DNA of 13,447 bases from the NCBI GenBank assembly GCA_021372695.1, contig JAJFTY010000073.1, positions 1 through 13,447 of the forward strand, given 5' to 3'. Positions 1,162 to 13,110 of the stretch are shown one piece after another. The position numbers were made by a program, and so were the translations under genes. The notes beneath the pieces are model-generated. The model saw only the letters and a program-made list of their open reading frames with translations. It did no database searches and had not been told where the DNA came from. The DNA comes from Deltaproteobacteria bacterium (lineage in GTDB: Bacteria; Desulfobacterota; Syntrophia; Syntrophales; UBA5619). Positions within the stretch are counted from its first letter, which is position 1. The number at the start of each line of letters is the position of its first letter.

Positions 1162-3084
1162 ATGAGATGTGGCAGCGTGTTTTTTCTCCAGTGCAGGGCG
1201 GTGGTTATTATCTGGCTGGTTTCCGCAACCCTTTTTCTGCCCGCTCCCGGGCGGGCCTCTCTGACCTCGGCCGATTGGCGGCCGGCGTCCGAAGACGGGT
1301 GGATCACGCAGGAGTCGGAGTCGGGGCTGGATTGGCTCGATGTTACGTTGACAACGAATCAGACCTTCGATCAGGTTCGTACGGGGATCTGGTACGAACG
1401 GGGATTTCGCCATGCCACGGTCGATGAGCTGAGAACCCTCTTCATCCATGCCGGCACGCCGGACGACGGTTTCGATACAGCCGTGACGCACCGCGTGGAA
1501 ACCCAGACCCTGATATCACTGGTGGGCGCCACCCCGGATGGGGGAAGCAATACCATGGGGCTTACGGGCAGCGACTTCTGGGGCCATGACATCACGACAG
1601 CCAACTATCCGATTGGCGTCCGGTTTTCGGCGCTTTTGGGTAAACTCCAGGTGGGCCCTTCCTGGGGCGAAGCGAGTTTCAGCGGCGGCCATCCATTCAG
1701 CGACGAGGCATCTCCGTCCTGGGGGAGCTTTCTGGTCAGGACGACGCCCCCGCCACCGGCCGTTTCCAACGTGAGCCCCTTCCATAAGGCAACGGGGGTT
1801 CCGCTGAGCCCGAGGCTGCAGATCGAGGCCTCTTCCGCCAACGGTTCAGGCAAAACACATCGATCAACGGACTGGGAGGTGTCGTCCGATGTGGCTTTTT
1901 CGGCAGATACCGTTGTTTTCAAGAGTCTTTCGGACAGGCGTAACTTGACCGCGATCATCGTGCCCCCCGGATGCTTGAAGCCGGATACAACCTACTATTG
2001 GCGGGCCAGGATGAGAGACACAGCTGGTCAATCTTCCGGGTCCGACCTCTCCCTGACAACCTCCTTCAGGACGCTCGCCGTGGCTCTCGACGCTGGGGGC
2101 GTCGTGGTGGAAGGGATAGCCGTCAAACGGCTGGGCGTCCAGGTGGTGAATCTCAATGGGCTGACGGACGCCGAGCTTAAAGAAATCGGGGCCGTTTCAT
2201 CGCGCCTCGTCGCCGCATTTCCGGTCGTCAACGCGGGGCTCACCGCGGATATCACCCAAGCAGGGATGATGATTGCCAGGGCAAACGACGGCGACGGCAC
2301 CGTAATCGGCCTGGTCACCCCCGCGGGCGTCCGAATCGCGTCATTTTCGACCATGACGGTCTCCGATCCTGGGTTCGATCACACCCCCCTGCCGCCGAAG
2401 ACGAATTTCCCTCACGGGATCGTCGGCTTCAGGCTGGCAGGCGTTGCGCCCGGCGGTTCCATGGATGTCCGATTGTATCTGCCGGAGGACCTGCCGCCCG
2501 ATGCGGCGTGGTACAAGTACCATCCCGCACGGGGTTGGATGAAGGTCAATGCCGTTGGAACGCACGATACGGACGGAACGCTGTTGAGTGCCGCCACAAG
2601 ATTCGTCGTGAACGACGGCATCGGAATCCTGACCGTGACCGACGACGATCCACTGATCGATTTCAGCACCGAAATCTCTGGTGGGACGGGAGTCATCGTG
2701 GACCCGGGGGGGATAGGCATCCCGGTCGCGGCGGGCGACAGCGGCGGCTGTTTCATCGCCACAGCGGCTTACGGCTCGGCCCTTGAACCACGGGTCGCGA
2801 CGCTACGGGCGTTTCGTGACCGTTATCTGCTTCATCGCCCGTGGGGCAGAGCCTTCGTACGATTTTACTATGCTTACTCTCCGGCAGTAGCGGATTCCAT
2901 CGCGGGACACGGTAGTTTGCGCGCCGCCGTGCGGCTTGTCCTGCTGCCCTTTATCGGCTTCAGCAGCCTCGCCCTGATGATAGGCTTTCTTCCGGCCTTT
3001 GCCGGACTTGCTATCATTCCGGGACTCGGGATCATCGGCTGGCGGATGATACGAAACAGAGGGGCCGGCGGGGGTGAAAAATAA
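1162..3084 (+). CDS. Secreted, membrane-anchored Fn3 / choice-of-anchor U / CFI-box-CTERM protein
   Basis: 640 residues; the ATG has a strong SD (GAGGTGAT, 1151-1158). Residues 1-32 are a signal peptide ending about G-R-A|S. Residues 35-190 resemble the N-terminal module of many PEP-CTERM-class exported proteins ([18 protein letters not shown], then [12 protein letters not shown]). Residues 196-303 look like a fibronectin-III domain with the typical [15 protein letters not shown] strand. Residues about 400-520 match the choice-of-anchor U region: [31 protein letters not shown], and the closing [10 protein letters not shown]. The C-terminus starts with [10 protein letters not shown] at residue 530, the CFI-box signature, followed by an amphipathic stretch and a hydrophobic tail (about 592-630) ending W-R-M-I-R-N-R-G, a membrane stop with basic residues. 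The layout implies export, anchoring by the tail and possible processing at the Cys region. The binding partner of the outer domains is unknown. Domain names are from recalled family signatures, not a search. Confidence 0.8.
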
Positions 3085-7792: not shown

Positions 7793-10700
7793 ATGATGAG
7801 ATCGATCCTCAGGAACGGCATCTTCATTTTGGCGGTTTTCCTCATCTGCTGGCTGCCCATTCGTCCGGCCTATGGTGCAGGCACATTCATCTCCGCGCCG
7901 GATCGTGTCGATATGGTGCACGATCCCAGCCGCAACATCCTCTACATCACTTCCGGCACGGATGTCCTGGTTTACCAGCTCGACACGAAACAGTTCCTTG
8001 CGCCATTCGCGCTGGGAACCACTTTGAGGGGGATCGATCTGTCGCCGGATGGAAATACGCTCGCGGTCGCGGACGCTTCCAGCGCCGGCATCTATCTGAT
8101 CGACCTCCAAACCCGTTCGAGCCGGAAGGTCTCTTTCTCGCCACCTTACAGCGTTGAAGGCGGCTCATCTTCCGTGGCGTTCGGCATAGATGGAAGCATC
8201 GTCGTTTCGCCTCTCACGTTGATAGGCTCCCTGCGAAGGTACAATCCTGCGACCGAAGAGGTTACGCCACTCCTAGAATGGGCCTCCGGAGATATGATGG
8301 TCTGCGGCAGCGCCGATGGCAAAACCATCGGCTACTTTGATCAATCATGGGGCCCTTACCGGGTGCTCGACGGCAGCCTCGTCGAAAGAACCGTTATCAC
8401 GAATGTCATCTCTTCCTATTATGGGATCGGCACCAATCGCAATGGCACCCAATTTGCCATTCCCACGTCCGACGGTACCTATGTTTACAACACGGATTTC
8501 GTGCAGATTGCGACGCTTGGCCGGCGCCCCGGTGTACCCGTTGGTGTGGTCTACGCCCCTTCGGAAGACATCGTCTACTTCGCATGGGCAGAAACGCAGG
8601 AGGTGCGCGCCTTCGAAACCGCCGATTTTGCGCAGGTCGCTTCCTACAATTTTGAAGACACTTTCAAGAGTACGGGCAACCCGGGCTACCAGCAGGGGCG
8701 ATTGAAGATCTCCCGCGATGGGACCCTGCTCTTTGCCGCCGTGGAGGGTGGAATCCGTTACGTCAATACGGGAACGGATGCCACGCCTGCCCATCCATTG
8801 ACGATTCAGACGACGGGTGCCGGCGCCGGCTCGGTGACCAGTTCCCCGGAGGGAATCTACTGCCCATCCGTCTGCACCCGGGACTATCCGGGCGGCAGCC
8901 GGGTCACCCTGAGCGCCAGAGCGCATCAAGGGTCCGTATTTGCGGGATGGTCCGGGGCGGGATGTTCCGGAACGGAAGCATGCACAGTTTCTATCGATGG
9001 GGAAACGACGGTGACTGCCACCTTCAGCAAGGGCCATGATCTCGGGAGGAGCCACTTCATCCCCTCGCCCGACAGCGTCGACATGGTCCACGACCCCGGC
9101 CGCAACATCCTCTACATCACTTCGGGCGCGGATGTCGTGCGTTATGACGTCGCTACCCAACAGTTTCTAACGCCGTTCTGGCTGGGGGGCGATTTAAAGG
9201 GAATCGACCTGTCACCGGACGCCAATATGCTGGCCGTTGCAGACCGTTCCATTGCCGGGGTACACCTGATCGATCTTCAGACCGGTTCGAGCCGGAAGGT
9301 CCTTTTCCCTCAAACCACAAATAACGCAGTTTCGTTCTCCGTGGCGTTCGGAAGTGACGGAAACATGCTCGTTTCCTCCCAGTCTCTGCTCAAATACAAT
9401 TCGACAAACGGAGAGGTGACGACAGTCTTACAACCTGTTCAAGGAACCACGATGCTGAGCGCCAGCGCCGACGGCAGTGTGATCGGTTTTGCAGAAGGTG
9501 GCCGATCGGACGGGCCCTGGGGCCGTTACCGGGTGAATGACGGCGACATCGTCGAAAGAATCGGCTATACCGACGGTACCGGCTGGTCCAACTATGAAAT
9601 CGGTACAAATCGTAACGGTACGCAATTCGCTCTGCCGACAGCCGCGGGTATGTCTATCTACGATGCCGATTTCCGCAAGATCACCACGCTGGGTGAGTAT
9701 GCAGGTCCCCACCCCACCGGCGTCGTTTATGACCCTTCCGAAGACATCGTCTATTTCGCATGGGGGGGAACGCGGGAGGTGCGTGCCTTCGAAACCACCC
9801 ATTTCACGCAGGTCAATTCCTACAATTTTGAATACACCTTCCTCGAGACGGGGAATCAATCCTACAAGCCGGGACGATTGAAGATGTCCCGGGATGGTTC
9901 GCTGCTCTTCGTGATCGTTGAAGGAGGGATCCGTTATACCGAGACCCACCTCCGGGGCGATATCGATCGGAACGGCACCGTGGGTCTGGACGATGCGATC
10001 GGGGCGCTTCAGGTGGCCTCGGGCGTTCAATCATCACAACCCTTTTCACCGCAGGCCGACGTTGACGGCGACCATCGCATCGGCGGAGCGGAGTCTGTAT
10101 ACGCTCTCCAGGTTGTCTCCGGCCTGCGCGGCAACAACAGGAATCCCGTGTTGAACGTCAGCGGAGAGAAAACCTGTTATGAAGGACAATGGATCTACCT
10201 CACCGTCTCTGCCACGGATCCGGACAACGATCCTCTCGTTTTTTCAGCGACCTCTTTGCCGGCGGGCGCGGGGTTCGACCCGGTCCACGGAACATTCTCC
10301 TGGAGGACTGCGTCCTCCCAAACCGGCATTCACCCCGTCACGTTTACCGTCACGGATGATTTTGGAGGGCAGACCTCGGAAACCGTCAATATCATCGTGA
10401 ACGAGTATCCTCTATTCGTGGCGGGGGATTACTATCCGTTGAATGTGGGTGACTGGATCGATTACGACAGGCACACGCTTTACAGTTCTGGTACCGGACG
10501 TGTGGCGGTAACCGGCACAAAAATAATCGGAGATGCCGTCACGAAAGTCGTCTCTTACACCGGTGGCGCGACCGATTATTACACTTCCGACGAAAACGGA
10601 ACCGGTGTCAAATTCTACGGAGAGTATGACCCTTCCTCCGGGGAGGAAGTGCTGTTTGTCGCGCCGCTGGTCCTGATTCCCGGAGACATGGCGATCGGAA

Positions 10701-11005
10701 CCAGCTCCGATTGCTCTTCCTCCTGGACCTTCGATTACTCAGGGACGACATACCATGTCGAAATCACAGCCCATACCAGCTACATGGCGCTCGAGGATGT
10801 TCAGACGGAAAATGAGACTCTGCACGATTGCATCAAGATGTCTATGGAGATTGACCAGCATCTTGTCGAGAAAGACCAGTCTCTGAGCACTGGAACCCGC
10901 TACTTTTGGTATTACAGGGGGGTGGGAATCGTCAAGGAAGCGCAGGGAAGCGACACCAGCGTGATCAAGCGATCCTACATCAACGGGGTCCTACGGAATT
11001 ATTGA
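7793..11005 (+). CDS. Large secreted protein with two tandem seven-blade propellers, InlB-type repeat, dockerin and Ig-like domains
   Basis: 1070 residues. Residues 1-29 are a signal peptide (ends PAYGA|G). Residues about 30-324 form the first beta-propeller, with seven consecutive strand-rich segments recognisable as repeats: VDMVHDP, GIDLSPDG, VAFGIDG, SADGKTIG, IGTNRNG, VYAPSEDI, LKISRDG. A module at 336-413 resembles divergent InlB B-repeats (GSVTSSPEGIYCPSVC, FAGWSGAGCSGTEACTV), with four cysteines that could pair. Residues about 421-718 repeat the whole propeller (VDMVHDP, GIDLSPDA, GTNRNGTQFA, PSEDIVYFAW). Residues 721-780 are dockerin-like, with two EF-hand loops (D723-x-D725-x-N727...D734 and D756-x-D758-x-D760...E767). 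An Ig-like domain (about 784-871, YEGQWIYLTVSATDPDNDP) and a 200-residue C-terminal domain starting YYPLNVGDWIDYDRH follow. Propellers are usually binding platforms and the dockerin suggests calcium-dependent attachment, but the ligand is unknown. No anchor is visible, so it may be secreted. Confidence 0.85.
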   Translation: MMRSILRNGIFILAVFLICWLPIRPAYGAGTFISAPDRVDMVHDPSRNILYITSGTDVLVYQLDTKQFLAPFALGTTLRGIDLSPDGNTLAVADASSAGIYLIDLQTRSSRKVSFSPPYSVEGGSSSVAFGIDGSIVVSPLTLIGSLRRYNPATEEVTPLLEWASGDMMVCGSADGKTIGYFDQSWGPYRVLDGSLVERTVITNVISSYYGIGTNRNGTQFAIPTSDGTYVYNTDFVQIATLGRRPGVPVGVVYAPSEDIVYFAWAETQEVRAFETADFAQVASYNFEDTFKSTGNPGYQQGRLKISRDGTLLFAAVEGGIRYVNTGTDATPAHPLTIQTTGAGAGSVTSSPEGIYCPSVCTRDYPGGSRVTLSARAHQGSVFAGWSGAGCSGTEACTVSIDGETTVTATFSKGHDLGRSHFIPSPDSVDMVHDPGRNILYITSGADVVRYDVATQQFLTPFWLGGDLKGIDLSPDANMLAVADRSIAGVHLIDLQTGSSRKVLFPQTTNNAVSFSVAFGSDGNMLVSSQSLLKYNSTNGEVTTVLQPVQGTTMLSASADGSVIGFAEGGRSDGPWGRYRVNDGDIVERIGYTDGTGWSNYEIGTNRNGTQFALPTAAGMSIYDADFRKITTLGEYAGPHPTGVVYDPSEDIVYFAWGGTREVRAFETTHFTQVNSYNFEYTFLETGNQSYKPGRLKMSRDGSLLFVIVEGGIRYTETHLRGDIDRNGTVGLDDAIGALQVASGVQSSQPFSPQADVDGDHRIGGAESVYALQVVSGLRGNNRNPVLNVSGEKTCYEGQWIYLTVSATDPDNDPLVFSATSLPAGAGFDPVHGTFSWRTASSQTGIHPVTFTVTDDFGGQTSETVNIIVNEYPLFVAGDYYPLNVGDWIDYDRHTLYSSGTGRVAVTGTKIIGDAVTKVVSYTGGATDYYTSDENGTGVKFYGEYDPSSGEEVLFVAPLVLIPGDMAIGTSSDCSSSWTFDYSGTTYHVEITAHTSYMALEDVQTENETLHDCIKMSMEIDQHLVEKDQSLSTGTRYFWYYRGVGIVKEAQGSDTSVIKRSYINGVLRNY
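7881..8765 (+). repeat. Propeller unit A of an intragenic tandem duplication
   Basis: First copy of a unit of about 890 bases, repeated at 9053-9945. The 25 bases at 7929-7953 are identical to 9099-9123, and many other blocks match with silent differences, for example the region encoding PSEDIVYFAW in both. The identity at DNA as well as protein level indicates a fairly recent or conversion-maintained duplication. The two copies are separated by the InlB-type module. Confidence 0.85.
9053..9945 (+). repeat. Propeller unit B of an intragenic tandem duplication
   Basis: Second copy of the unit at 7881-8765, in the same gene and frame. The start-to-start offset is about 1170 bases. Differences include small insertions, so the copies have diverged but keep the same seven-blade order. 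Confidence 0.85.
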
Positions 11006-11678: not shown

Positions 11679-12533
11679 ATGATGCAGAAAGACAGCTACA
11701 CCATCCGGACCATGACACGGCCGGAGGTGGATATCGCGATCCGGATGGCCGCGGCGGAAGGCTGGAACCCGGGCTTGCACGATGCGGATTGCTTTTACGC
11801 GGCCGACCCGGCCGGATTCCTGGTGGGGCTTCTCGGGGACGAGCCCATCGCGACGATTTCCGCCGTCCGGTACGGCGCTTCCTTTGCCTTTATCGGGCTG
11901 TACATCGTGAAGCCGGAGCACCGCGGCCGGGGCTACGGCCTCGGGATCTGGAATGCCGCCCTGGCGACGCTCCCGGGCCGGACGATCGGTCTCGACGGAG
12001 TCGTGGCCCGGCAGGAGAATTACCGGAAATCCGGGTTTGCCCTGGCGTATCGCAATATCCGCTATCAGGGCACGGCTGGCGGGTACGCGCCGGCCGCCGC
12101 GGGGATCGTCCCGCTGTCCGGGCGGCCCTTTCTCGAAATATGCGAATACGACAGGCCCTTTTTCCCCGACGACCGGAAGCGATTCCTGGAGTGCTGGATC
12201 AGCCAACCCCGGGGCGCGGCGCTGGGCGTTCTGGAGAGCGGCAGGCTGGCGGGTTACGGCGTGCTCCGGGCCTGCCGCACCGGGTATAAGATAGGGCCGC
12301 TGTTTGCGGATACCCCGGAGCTGGCCGACCGCCTCTTCACGGCCCTGCAGGCGGAGGCTCCGGCCGGCGCTCCCATCTTCCTGGACGTGCCGGAAGTGAA
12401 TCGGGCAGCGGTCGATCTGGCGAATCGGCATCGCCTGGGTGTCGTGTTCGAGACCGCCCGCATGTATCGGGGAGCGGTTCCGGATCTGCCTCAGGACCGG
12501 ATTTTCGGCGTGACGACTTTCGAACTGGGCTGA
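11679..12533 (+). CDS. GNAT-family N-acetyltransferase with C-terminal Acetyltransf_18-like domain
   Basis: I place the start at ATG 11679 (284 residues), which follows GGAAG with fair spacing. An upstream ATG at 11613 would add 22 unconserved residues overlapping the previous gene. The first domain (residues 1-130) has the GNAT fold signature: TIRTMTRPEVDIAIRMAAAE with GWNPG, a central FIGLYIVKPEHRGRGYGLGI containing the acetyl-CoA pyrophosphate loop RGRGYG, and GVVARQENYRKSGF. The second half (about 145-284) begins YAPAAAGIVPLSGRPFLEIC and contains SGRLAGYGVLR with CRTGYKIGPLFADTPELADR, typical of the Acetyltransf_18 extension seen in a bacterial two-domain GNAT group. The acceptor is unknown. 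The selenoprotein candidate begins 34 bases downstream. Confidence 0.87.
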   Translation: MMQKDSYTIRTMTRPEVDIAIRMAAAEGWNPGLHDADCFYAADPAGFLVGLLGDEPIATISAVRYGASFAFIGLYIVKPEHRGRGYGLGIWNAALATLPGRTIGLDGVVARQENYRKSGFALAYRNIRYQGTAGGYAPAAAGIVPLSGRPFLEICEYDRPFFPDDRKRFLECWISQPRGAALGVLESGRLAGYGVLRACRTGYKIGPLFADTPELADRLFTALQAEAPAGAPIFLDVPEVNRAAVDLANRHRLGVVFETARMYRGAVPDLPQDRIFGVTTFELG

Positions 12534-12567
12534 CCGCGACGAAGAATCATGAAAGGAGATGAGAGGT

Positions 12568-13110
12568 ATGACCTGGACGACATGGATTGAAACGGAGCCC
12601 GAGGGCAGCGCCGATGAAACCATCCGGGAGTTGTACGGCCGTACGCGCGACATGACCTCCGGCCGTCCCCCCGACACGGTCCGACTGACGAGCCTGACGC
12701 CCACGGTTTCCGGTCTACTCTTTGACCTCCAGCGGGCCATCTATCAGGAATCGAAGGGGCTGACGCTCCGGGAAAAAGAGATTGCGGCGCTCCTCGTTTC
12801 TGTCTATAACGGCTGCGTGCATTGAACGGCGAGCCATCTGGCGGCCCTCGGTCGAGCGGCCAAAGATCAGAAGTTGGCGGAGCAGGTCAAGGAGGATTTC
12901 ACCAAGGCGGACCTGAGCCCGCGGGAGAGGCGGATCGCCGATTTCGCCGTCAAGGTGACCCGGGCGGCGAACGCATGCAGCCCAACGGATGTCCAGGCGC
13001 TCCGGGAAGCGGGGCTGAGTGACAGGGATATCCTGGGCCTTGTGGAGATTGTCGCGTACTACAACCTGAGCACCCGGCTCTTCGAGTCGCTCAGCACCGT
13101 AGATCCGTGA
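12568..13110 (+). CDS. AhpD-like / peroxidase-related selenoprotein candidate (in-frame TGA read as selenocysteine)
   Basis: Read through TGA 12823-12825, the frame gives 180 residues, close to the length I recall for the AhpD-related 'uncharacterized peroxidase-related enzyme' family (carboxymuconolactone decarboxylase superfamily). I start at ATG 12568, with AGGAGA (12554-12559) well spaced; ATG 12559 is too close to it. The N-terminal half ends LTLREKEIAALLVSVYNGC, and the other half continues TASHLAALGRAA, LSPRERRIADFAVKVTRAA, VQALREAGLSDRDILGLVEI and YYNLSTRLFESL, all family-like. The TGA codes residue 86 in C83-V-H-U86-T-A-S-H90, exactly the CxxC-xxxH active-site pattern of AhpD-type enzymes with the second Cys replaced. 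Such enzymes act on peroxides through this thiol pair. A Sec there is likely catalytic, and the SECIS-like hairpin follows directly. A single Cys-to-stop mutation or base error is the alternative, less likely given the hairpin and the intact downstream frame. Confidence 0.82.
12836..12867 (+). promoter_or_regulatory. Candidate bacterial SECIS element
   Basis: GGCCCTC (12843-12849) pairs with GAG (12854-12856) and GGCC (12858-12861), with one bulged C at 12857 and the apical loop GGTC (12850-12853). A weak lower helix ATCT/AGAT (12836-12839 with 12864-12867) may extend it. The loop begins 24 bases after the TGA. Bacterial SECIS hairpins lie just downstream of the UGA and carry a G (often GGU, as in E. 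coli fdhF) in the apical loop that SelB contacts. The hairpin is inside coding sequence. Confidence 0.72.

Follow-up and report, generated by a model that had tools for sequence, protein, structure and literature searches.

The window analyzed in this study, a stretch of 13,447 nucleotides from a Deltaproteobacteria bacterium of the Syntrophales (GCA_021372695.1, contig JAJFTY010000073.1), almost certainly contains a selenoprotein gene. The gene, which is located at 12568–13110 on the forward strand, very probably encodes an AhpD-like oxidoreductase of the TIGR01926 family with a C-x-x-U...H site, in which UGA at codon 86 is read as selenocysteine (Sec) by means of a hairpin that lies downstream. 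Comparison with homologous sequences supports the assignment of UGA at codon 86 to the place of the second catalytic Cys and strongly supports the predicted recoding of this UGA.

The AhpD-like gene, its family and its fold

The coding frame specifies 180 residues and is open apart from the TGA at 12823–12825, which is codon 86 and the predicted Sec codon, and the terminal TGA at 13108–13110. Reading of the upstream sequence revealed a ribosome-binding-like site, AAGGAG (12553–12558, forward strand), 9 nt before the ATG at 12568. The read-through product passed two models, TIGR01926, 'peroxidase-related enzyme', with 121.1 bits (cut-off 81.8) and Pfam CMD with 56.5 bits (cut-off 23). The query protein P0001 used for the family, structure and model runs carried one extra C-terminal Cys, which came from the terminal TGA. 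The earlier note had placed the TGA exactly at the second Cys of the AhpD CxxC...H motif, with family-like flanks on both sides in a single frame. Both points were borne out: in the alignment with PDB entries 2prr and 3c1l, codon 86 falls on the second Cys of their CxxC site, and a tblastn match of the window product to the related locus L001 covered residues 1–180 at 81%. The other residues of the putative active site, all on the forward strand, are Glu71 (GAG, 12778–12780), a proposed proton relay; Cys83 (TGC, 12814–12816), the first residue of C-x-x-U and the proposed resolving Cys; and His90 (CAT, 12835–12837), the catalytic His of the family motif. With TGC at codon 83, the window gene is of the CxxU form and not of the UxxU form, which has TGA at both codons 83 and 86.

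AhpD-like selenoproteins have been reported from ocean metagenomes and genomes (PMC1088965, PMC2398784, PMC9312934, PMC1794560), and three of these papers give the CxxU form, as AhpD-like/COG2128 (PMC1088965, PMC2398784, PMC9312934). Table 1 of a 2026 review also contains the entry 'AhpD-like protein, TIGR01926, CxxU, 1, MCB9421940.1' (PMC13188914). The earlier note was therefore right that the concept is not new. Given that AhpD-like selenoproteins were already published, the window gene is a further member of a known family, which it extends without opening a new one. A literature search for peroxidase-related selenoproteins in Planctomycetes found no paper.

Similar to the published AhpD-like selenoprotein, the window product belongs to TIGR01926, has the CxxU form with one Sec and is followed by a SECIS-like hairpin in its gene. 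Within this family, whose published representative is MCB9421940.1, the clade of the window gene is marked by a loop 24 nt past the UGA and by the fixed sequence CTCGGTCGAG. The NF041238 AhpD-related (seleno)protein, with its CFYUT motif, also shares the AhpD/CMD fold and has C-x-x-U at the same place. Different from the window product, however, NF041238 is longer (357 positions), and the window product scored only 29.3 bits against it (cut-off 175). Likewise, canonical AhpD (TIGR00777) has a CxxC...H-type site and a similar fold, but the window product scored 16.6 bits against that model, whose cut-off is 191.95. NF041047, a distant AhpD homolog, was absent from the seven NCBIfam families that matched the window product at E up to 0.1.

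An AlphaFold2 model, built with Cys at position 86 from a 13-row alignment, had a mean pLDDT of 94.5. Its best PDB matches were AhpD or peroxidase-related proteins, of which AhpD-type 6k40 (TM 0.87) and peroxidase-related 2prr (TM 0.86) resembled the model over the whole chain, each at 29% identity to the window product. The CxxC of 2prr is aligned with the CxxU of the window product, so that 2prr has Cys where the window gene has TGA. The chains of Mycobacterium tuberculosis AhpD were weak fold matches only (E 0.085 or worse). The Glu-Cys-Cys-His spacing of the window protein is presumably that of M. tuberculosis AhpD.

These features suggest how the enzyme might work. SelB would deliver Sec-tRNA(Sec) to UGA 86 under the direction of the hairpin. 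Sec86 would then attack peroxide or a similar oxidant with the aid of His90 and Glu71, and Cys83 would resolve the oxidized Sec86 through a selenenylsulfide. This division of labor among Sec86, His90, Glu71 and Cys83 is reasonably likely in our view, and family membership and the motif suggest that the reaction may be AhpD-type reduction of peroxide. Alternatively, a Sec-containing protein could use the AhpD/CMD fold for other thiol or selenol chemistry, e.g., disulfide exchange or reductive dehalogenation, which we regard as possible but somewhat doubtful. The name of TIGR01926 goes no further than 'peroxidase-related', the score against canonical AhpD is far below its cut-off and the debrominase Bmp8 was among the fold matches of the model. 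Gene context gives no hint of the reaction either, as none of the 11 other proteins of the window had a match at E 1e-3 in the loci of the relatives, whose flanks are short, so that a shared context may exist elsewhere. On the other hand, the relatives of known structure nearest to the window product bear the names AhpD or peroxidase-related, although these are mostly structural-genomics names that appear not to rest on assays.

Two other proteins of the window were also inspected. The 1070-residue protein encoded at 7793–11005 (forward strand) has putative Ig (He_PIG, Big_9) and InlB B-repeat-like domains according to Pfam, and its first part resembles, by eye, two repeats of a propeller-type unit. 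The 640-residue protein encoded at 1162–3084 (forward strand) had no Pfam match. A stretch of 10 residues precedes its hydrophobic C-terminal region, and this arrangement resembles a CFI-box sorting tail.

Codon 86 and Sec machinery among relatives

A scan of genome contigs identified 11 loci (L001–L011), all from MAGs, whose record titles were Deltaproteobacteria, Desulfohalobiaceae, Candidatus Aquidulcis, Acidobacteria, Gemmatimonadota/Gemmatimonadetes, Planctomycetota and Calditrichaeota. An in-frame TGA was found at the codon-86 column in 10 of the 11. For the comparison of homologs at codon 86 that the earlier note had proposed, 97 of the 98 fetched loci were combined with the window in a codon table of 100 rows, 93 of which were distinct. 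L009 was left out of the table. At L009:3001–3299 the first and last parts matched the family and the active-site stretch was absent, which may reflect decay of this copy or an error in the assembly.

Codon 86 was TGA in 61 of the 93 distinct rows, TGC/TGT in 30 and TTC (Phe) in two, and TAA or TAG was found in none of them. Both TTC rows were the second domains of two-domain proteins, L034 and L038, each of which also has a Cys row. His90 was retained in all 61 TGA rows as well as in all 30 Cys rows. Glu71 was retained in 59 of the 61 TGA rows, with Val in the other two, and in 29 of the 30 Cys rows, and codon 83 was TGC/TGT in 60 of the 61 TGA rows. Among the database proteins from the first protein search, of which 20 of 23 sequences were read (P0019, P0020 and P0022 were left out), P0005 had the Cys motif CVHC, at 53% identity. 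The middle part of another, P0006, departs from the family frame and looks misread.

Five phylum samples were also searched with alignment A1, at E cut-offs that differed between the samples. Exactly one internal TGA was found in 14 of the 71 listed matches in the phylum sample of genome G001 (E 1e-10; none in 56 and a TAA in one), in 45 of 83 in that of G003 (E 1e-25; none in 37 and two TGA in one), in 93 of 104 in that of G004 (E 1e-30; none in 10), in three of three in that of G002 (E 1e-40) and in 94 of 96 in that of G007 (E 1e-40; none in two). The remaining match in the sample of G004, G1078:C68, had two TGA and a TAA and is a decayed copy. Strong family matches were therefore mostly TGA-bearing in the samples of G004 and G007, compared with the smaller share in that of G001, for which the cut-off was laxer. 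All of these counts are biased frequencies, given the unequal cut-offs, the predominance of Sec forms in A1 (11 of its 13 rows) and the repetition of G001 genomes in the G002 sample. Moreover, they refer to internal TGA at any position, codon 86 itself having been read at the fetched loci only. Two exact-pattern scans of viral contigs yielded no match.

In principle, the TGA could truly end a dead gene, or it could result from misreading of TGC/TGT, and decayed copies such as L009, which lacks the active-site stretch, and G1078:C68 do exist. This explanation is nevertheless very improbable for the window gene: TGA is the most frequent codon 86 among the distinct rows, the frame and the His are conserved downstream of it and a dead gene would not keep the synonymous constraint described in the next section. 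A variant code that assigns every TGA to Trp or some other residue, without any Sec, is hardly credible: although the database entries P0003, P0004, P0007 and P0025 read codon 86 as Trp, Trp never occurs there in rows that lack TGA, where the column is Cys, both the window gene and the preceding GNAT gene (which ends at 12533) stop at TGA where their homologs or family end, and the constraint on the SECIS would be left unexplained.

The search for selA, selB, selC and selD that the earlier note had proposed was made in genomes of relatives, namely the 11 MAGs of the contig scan. selB was over the cut-off in 10 of them and selA in 9. selD was found in 10, and 8 of these selD genes carry a TGA of their own. 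A clear tRNA-Sec (at least 67 bits) was present in 9 MAGs. With 46.6 bits for G001 and 47.7 bits for G004, the tRNA-Sec candidates of these two genomes lay at the 47-bit threshold, a score that was also exceeded in 5 of 14 control genomes, and were counted as unclear. selA, selB, selD and tRNA-Sec were all present in 5 of the 11 MAGs (G003 and G007–G010), the other 6 being incomplete at the thresholds used. G009, one of those with all four components, is the genome that holds L009, the copy without an active site. In the phylum sample of G003, two sets of 25 genomes were compared for selB: those listed first among the 42 with a TGA row (G003 excluded) and those listed first among the 34 with no-stop rows only. 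selB was over the cut-off in 22 genomes of the former set and in 15 of the latter, which is a weak association between selB and TGA. In the latter set, selB can be kept by other selenoproteins.

The hairpin downstream of UGA 86

The SECIS-like hairpin described in the earlier note is present. The segment GGCCCTCGGTCGAGCGGCC (12843–12861, forward strand), a predicted bacterial SECIS, folds as a 7-bp stem (GGCC-CUC / GAG-c-GGCC) with one bulged base and a GGUC loop at 12850–12853, 24 nt past the UGA, and has a folding energy of −9.9 kcal/mol alone. The bacterial SECIS model set out in the accessible part of PMC13188914 has a loop of 3–9 nt, a stem of 4–16 bp, a G within the first two loop positions, a spacing of 16–37 nt and an MFE of at most −7.5, and the hairpin at 12843–12861 falls within these constraints. 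By itself, however, such a hairpin is weak proof. Among the 404 TGA trinucleotides on both strands of the window, 120 precede a hairpin that fits a similar model, 43 of these hairpins having a G[G/U] loop. The folding energy was no better than that of shuffled sequences (z −0.41 and −0.23 in two tests) and was dropped as uninformative for the presence of a SECIS. Rfam at the gathering threshold matched no family in the window.

The signal of the hairpin is its conserved apical part. Nine close Sec homologs were compared, i.e., the window gene and L001–L008, which were picked as close Sec forms and are not a random sample. Their third-base pairwise identities over the gene ranged from 0.26 to 0.60. 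A single degenerate amino acid was shared by the nine at 49 columns. Of these columns, codons 94–96 (CTC GGT CGA) alone were identical throughout, and none of 20,000 synonymous within-gene codon shuffles reproduced this identity or any two adjacent invariant codons. L058, which is outside the original nine, has the identical apical decamer. The stem pairs were retained in 96.8% of cells, vs. 28.6–46.0% when the stem was slid. The CUC[GGUC]GAG hairpin was within the minimum-energy fold of seven of the nine homologs, L001 and L005 preferring other folds. Covariation was mild, its score being matched by 23 of 500 shuffles. One stem pair was changed on both sides, from C-G to G-C in L006, and as many such changes occurred in 146 of 500 shuffles. 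The hairpin thus stands above chance because of the comparative signal, that is, codon choice and stem-pair retention, and not because of its energy or mere presence. These comparisons support the view that an RNA hairpin downstream of UGA 86 is under selection at synonymous positions. The decoding of UGA as Sec, which the earlier note had proposed, is supported by TGA or TGC/TGT in the homologs as well as by hairpin codons that are kept beyond what the protein needs.

The position of the hairpin varied among more distant relatives. In the distant Sec relatives at L011:834–877 and L013:1744–1787, the SECIS-like loop is about 6–7 nt closer to the UGA than in the clade of the window gene, and many rows of the codon table look, by eye, like L011 and L013 in their loop placement. 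The register of the hairpin seems to have shifted within the family. In addition, L003:3256–3299 contains an extra stem directly after the UGA (z −2.06), whose UCAU loop has no G in its first two positions.

Apparent double-TGA relatives and database annotation

L003 (DYJA01000002.1, Candidatus Aquidulcis) has TGA at both codons 83 and 86 (L003:3247–3258). It is the sole row of this kind among the 93 distinct rows, and its genome, G003, is among those with all four Sec components. A search with the first 82 residues of L003 returned 16 proteins, 7 of 82 residues and 9 of 85 residues. The former (P0028–P0034) are exactly 82 residues long and end directly before codon 83; P0028 is L003 itself, P0029 is from a Chloroflexota record, and P0030 and P0031 are identical past residue 1. 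The latter (P0035–P0043) end directly before codon 86. Similar to P0028–P0034, P0014 also ends directly before codon 83. In P0002, positions 83 and 86 are both W. From these protein ends and W residues, we infer TGA at codon 83 in P0029–P0034, P0014 and P0002.

In the UxxU form, the distance from the UGA to the SECIS loop would be 33 nt for the first UGA and 24 nt for the second one. As these two spacings are inside the published range of 16–37 nt, one hairpin could serve both UGAs. We consider it fairly probable that the window gene belongs to a subclade with the fixed SECIS decamer and the loop 24 nt past the UGA, and that within or beside this subclade, a group of bacteria that are at least partly Chloroflexota have replaced both active-site Cys with Sec to give a UxxU form, which predicts a diselenide enzyme whose two UGAs a single hairpin could serve. 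The accessible parts of the literature give UxxU for Prx-like and some other families, TIGR01926 not being among them there (PMC2398784, PMC13188914, PMC9312934), and a search of open-licence literature did not find a UxxU form of TIGR01926. A tree of 36 rows, built from the N-terminal 82 residues, was poorly resolved, with 19 of its 33 inner branches open and 5 starred; in its input, L005–L007, L010 and L011 extended beyond codon 82 by one to three residues and P0025 was cut at the wrong place. No claim on the number of UxxU origins was drawn from this tree.

Further database forms of the family look misread: P0003, P0004, P0007 and P0025 have W at the Sec position, and the 85-residue products P0035–P0043 stop before codon 86. 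Standard annotation cuts such genes at the active site, as in the nine 85-residue database proteins of the clade. When the UGA is read as Sec, one whole enzyme is restored. Moreover, one small enzyme occurs with Cys, as CxxU and apparently as UxxU, a natural series in which the contribution of selenium to an AhpD-type site can be studied.
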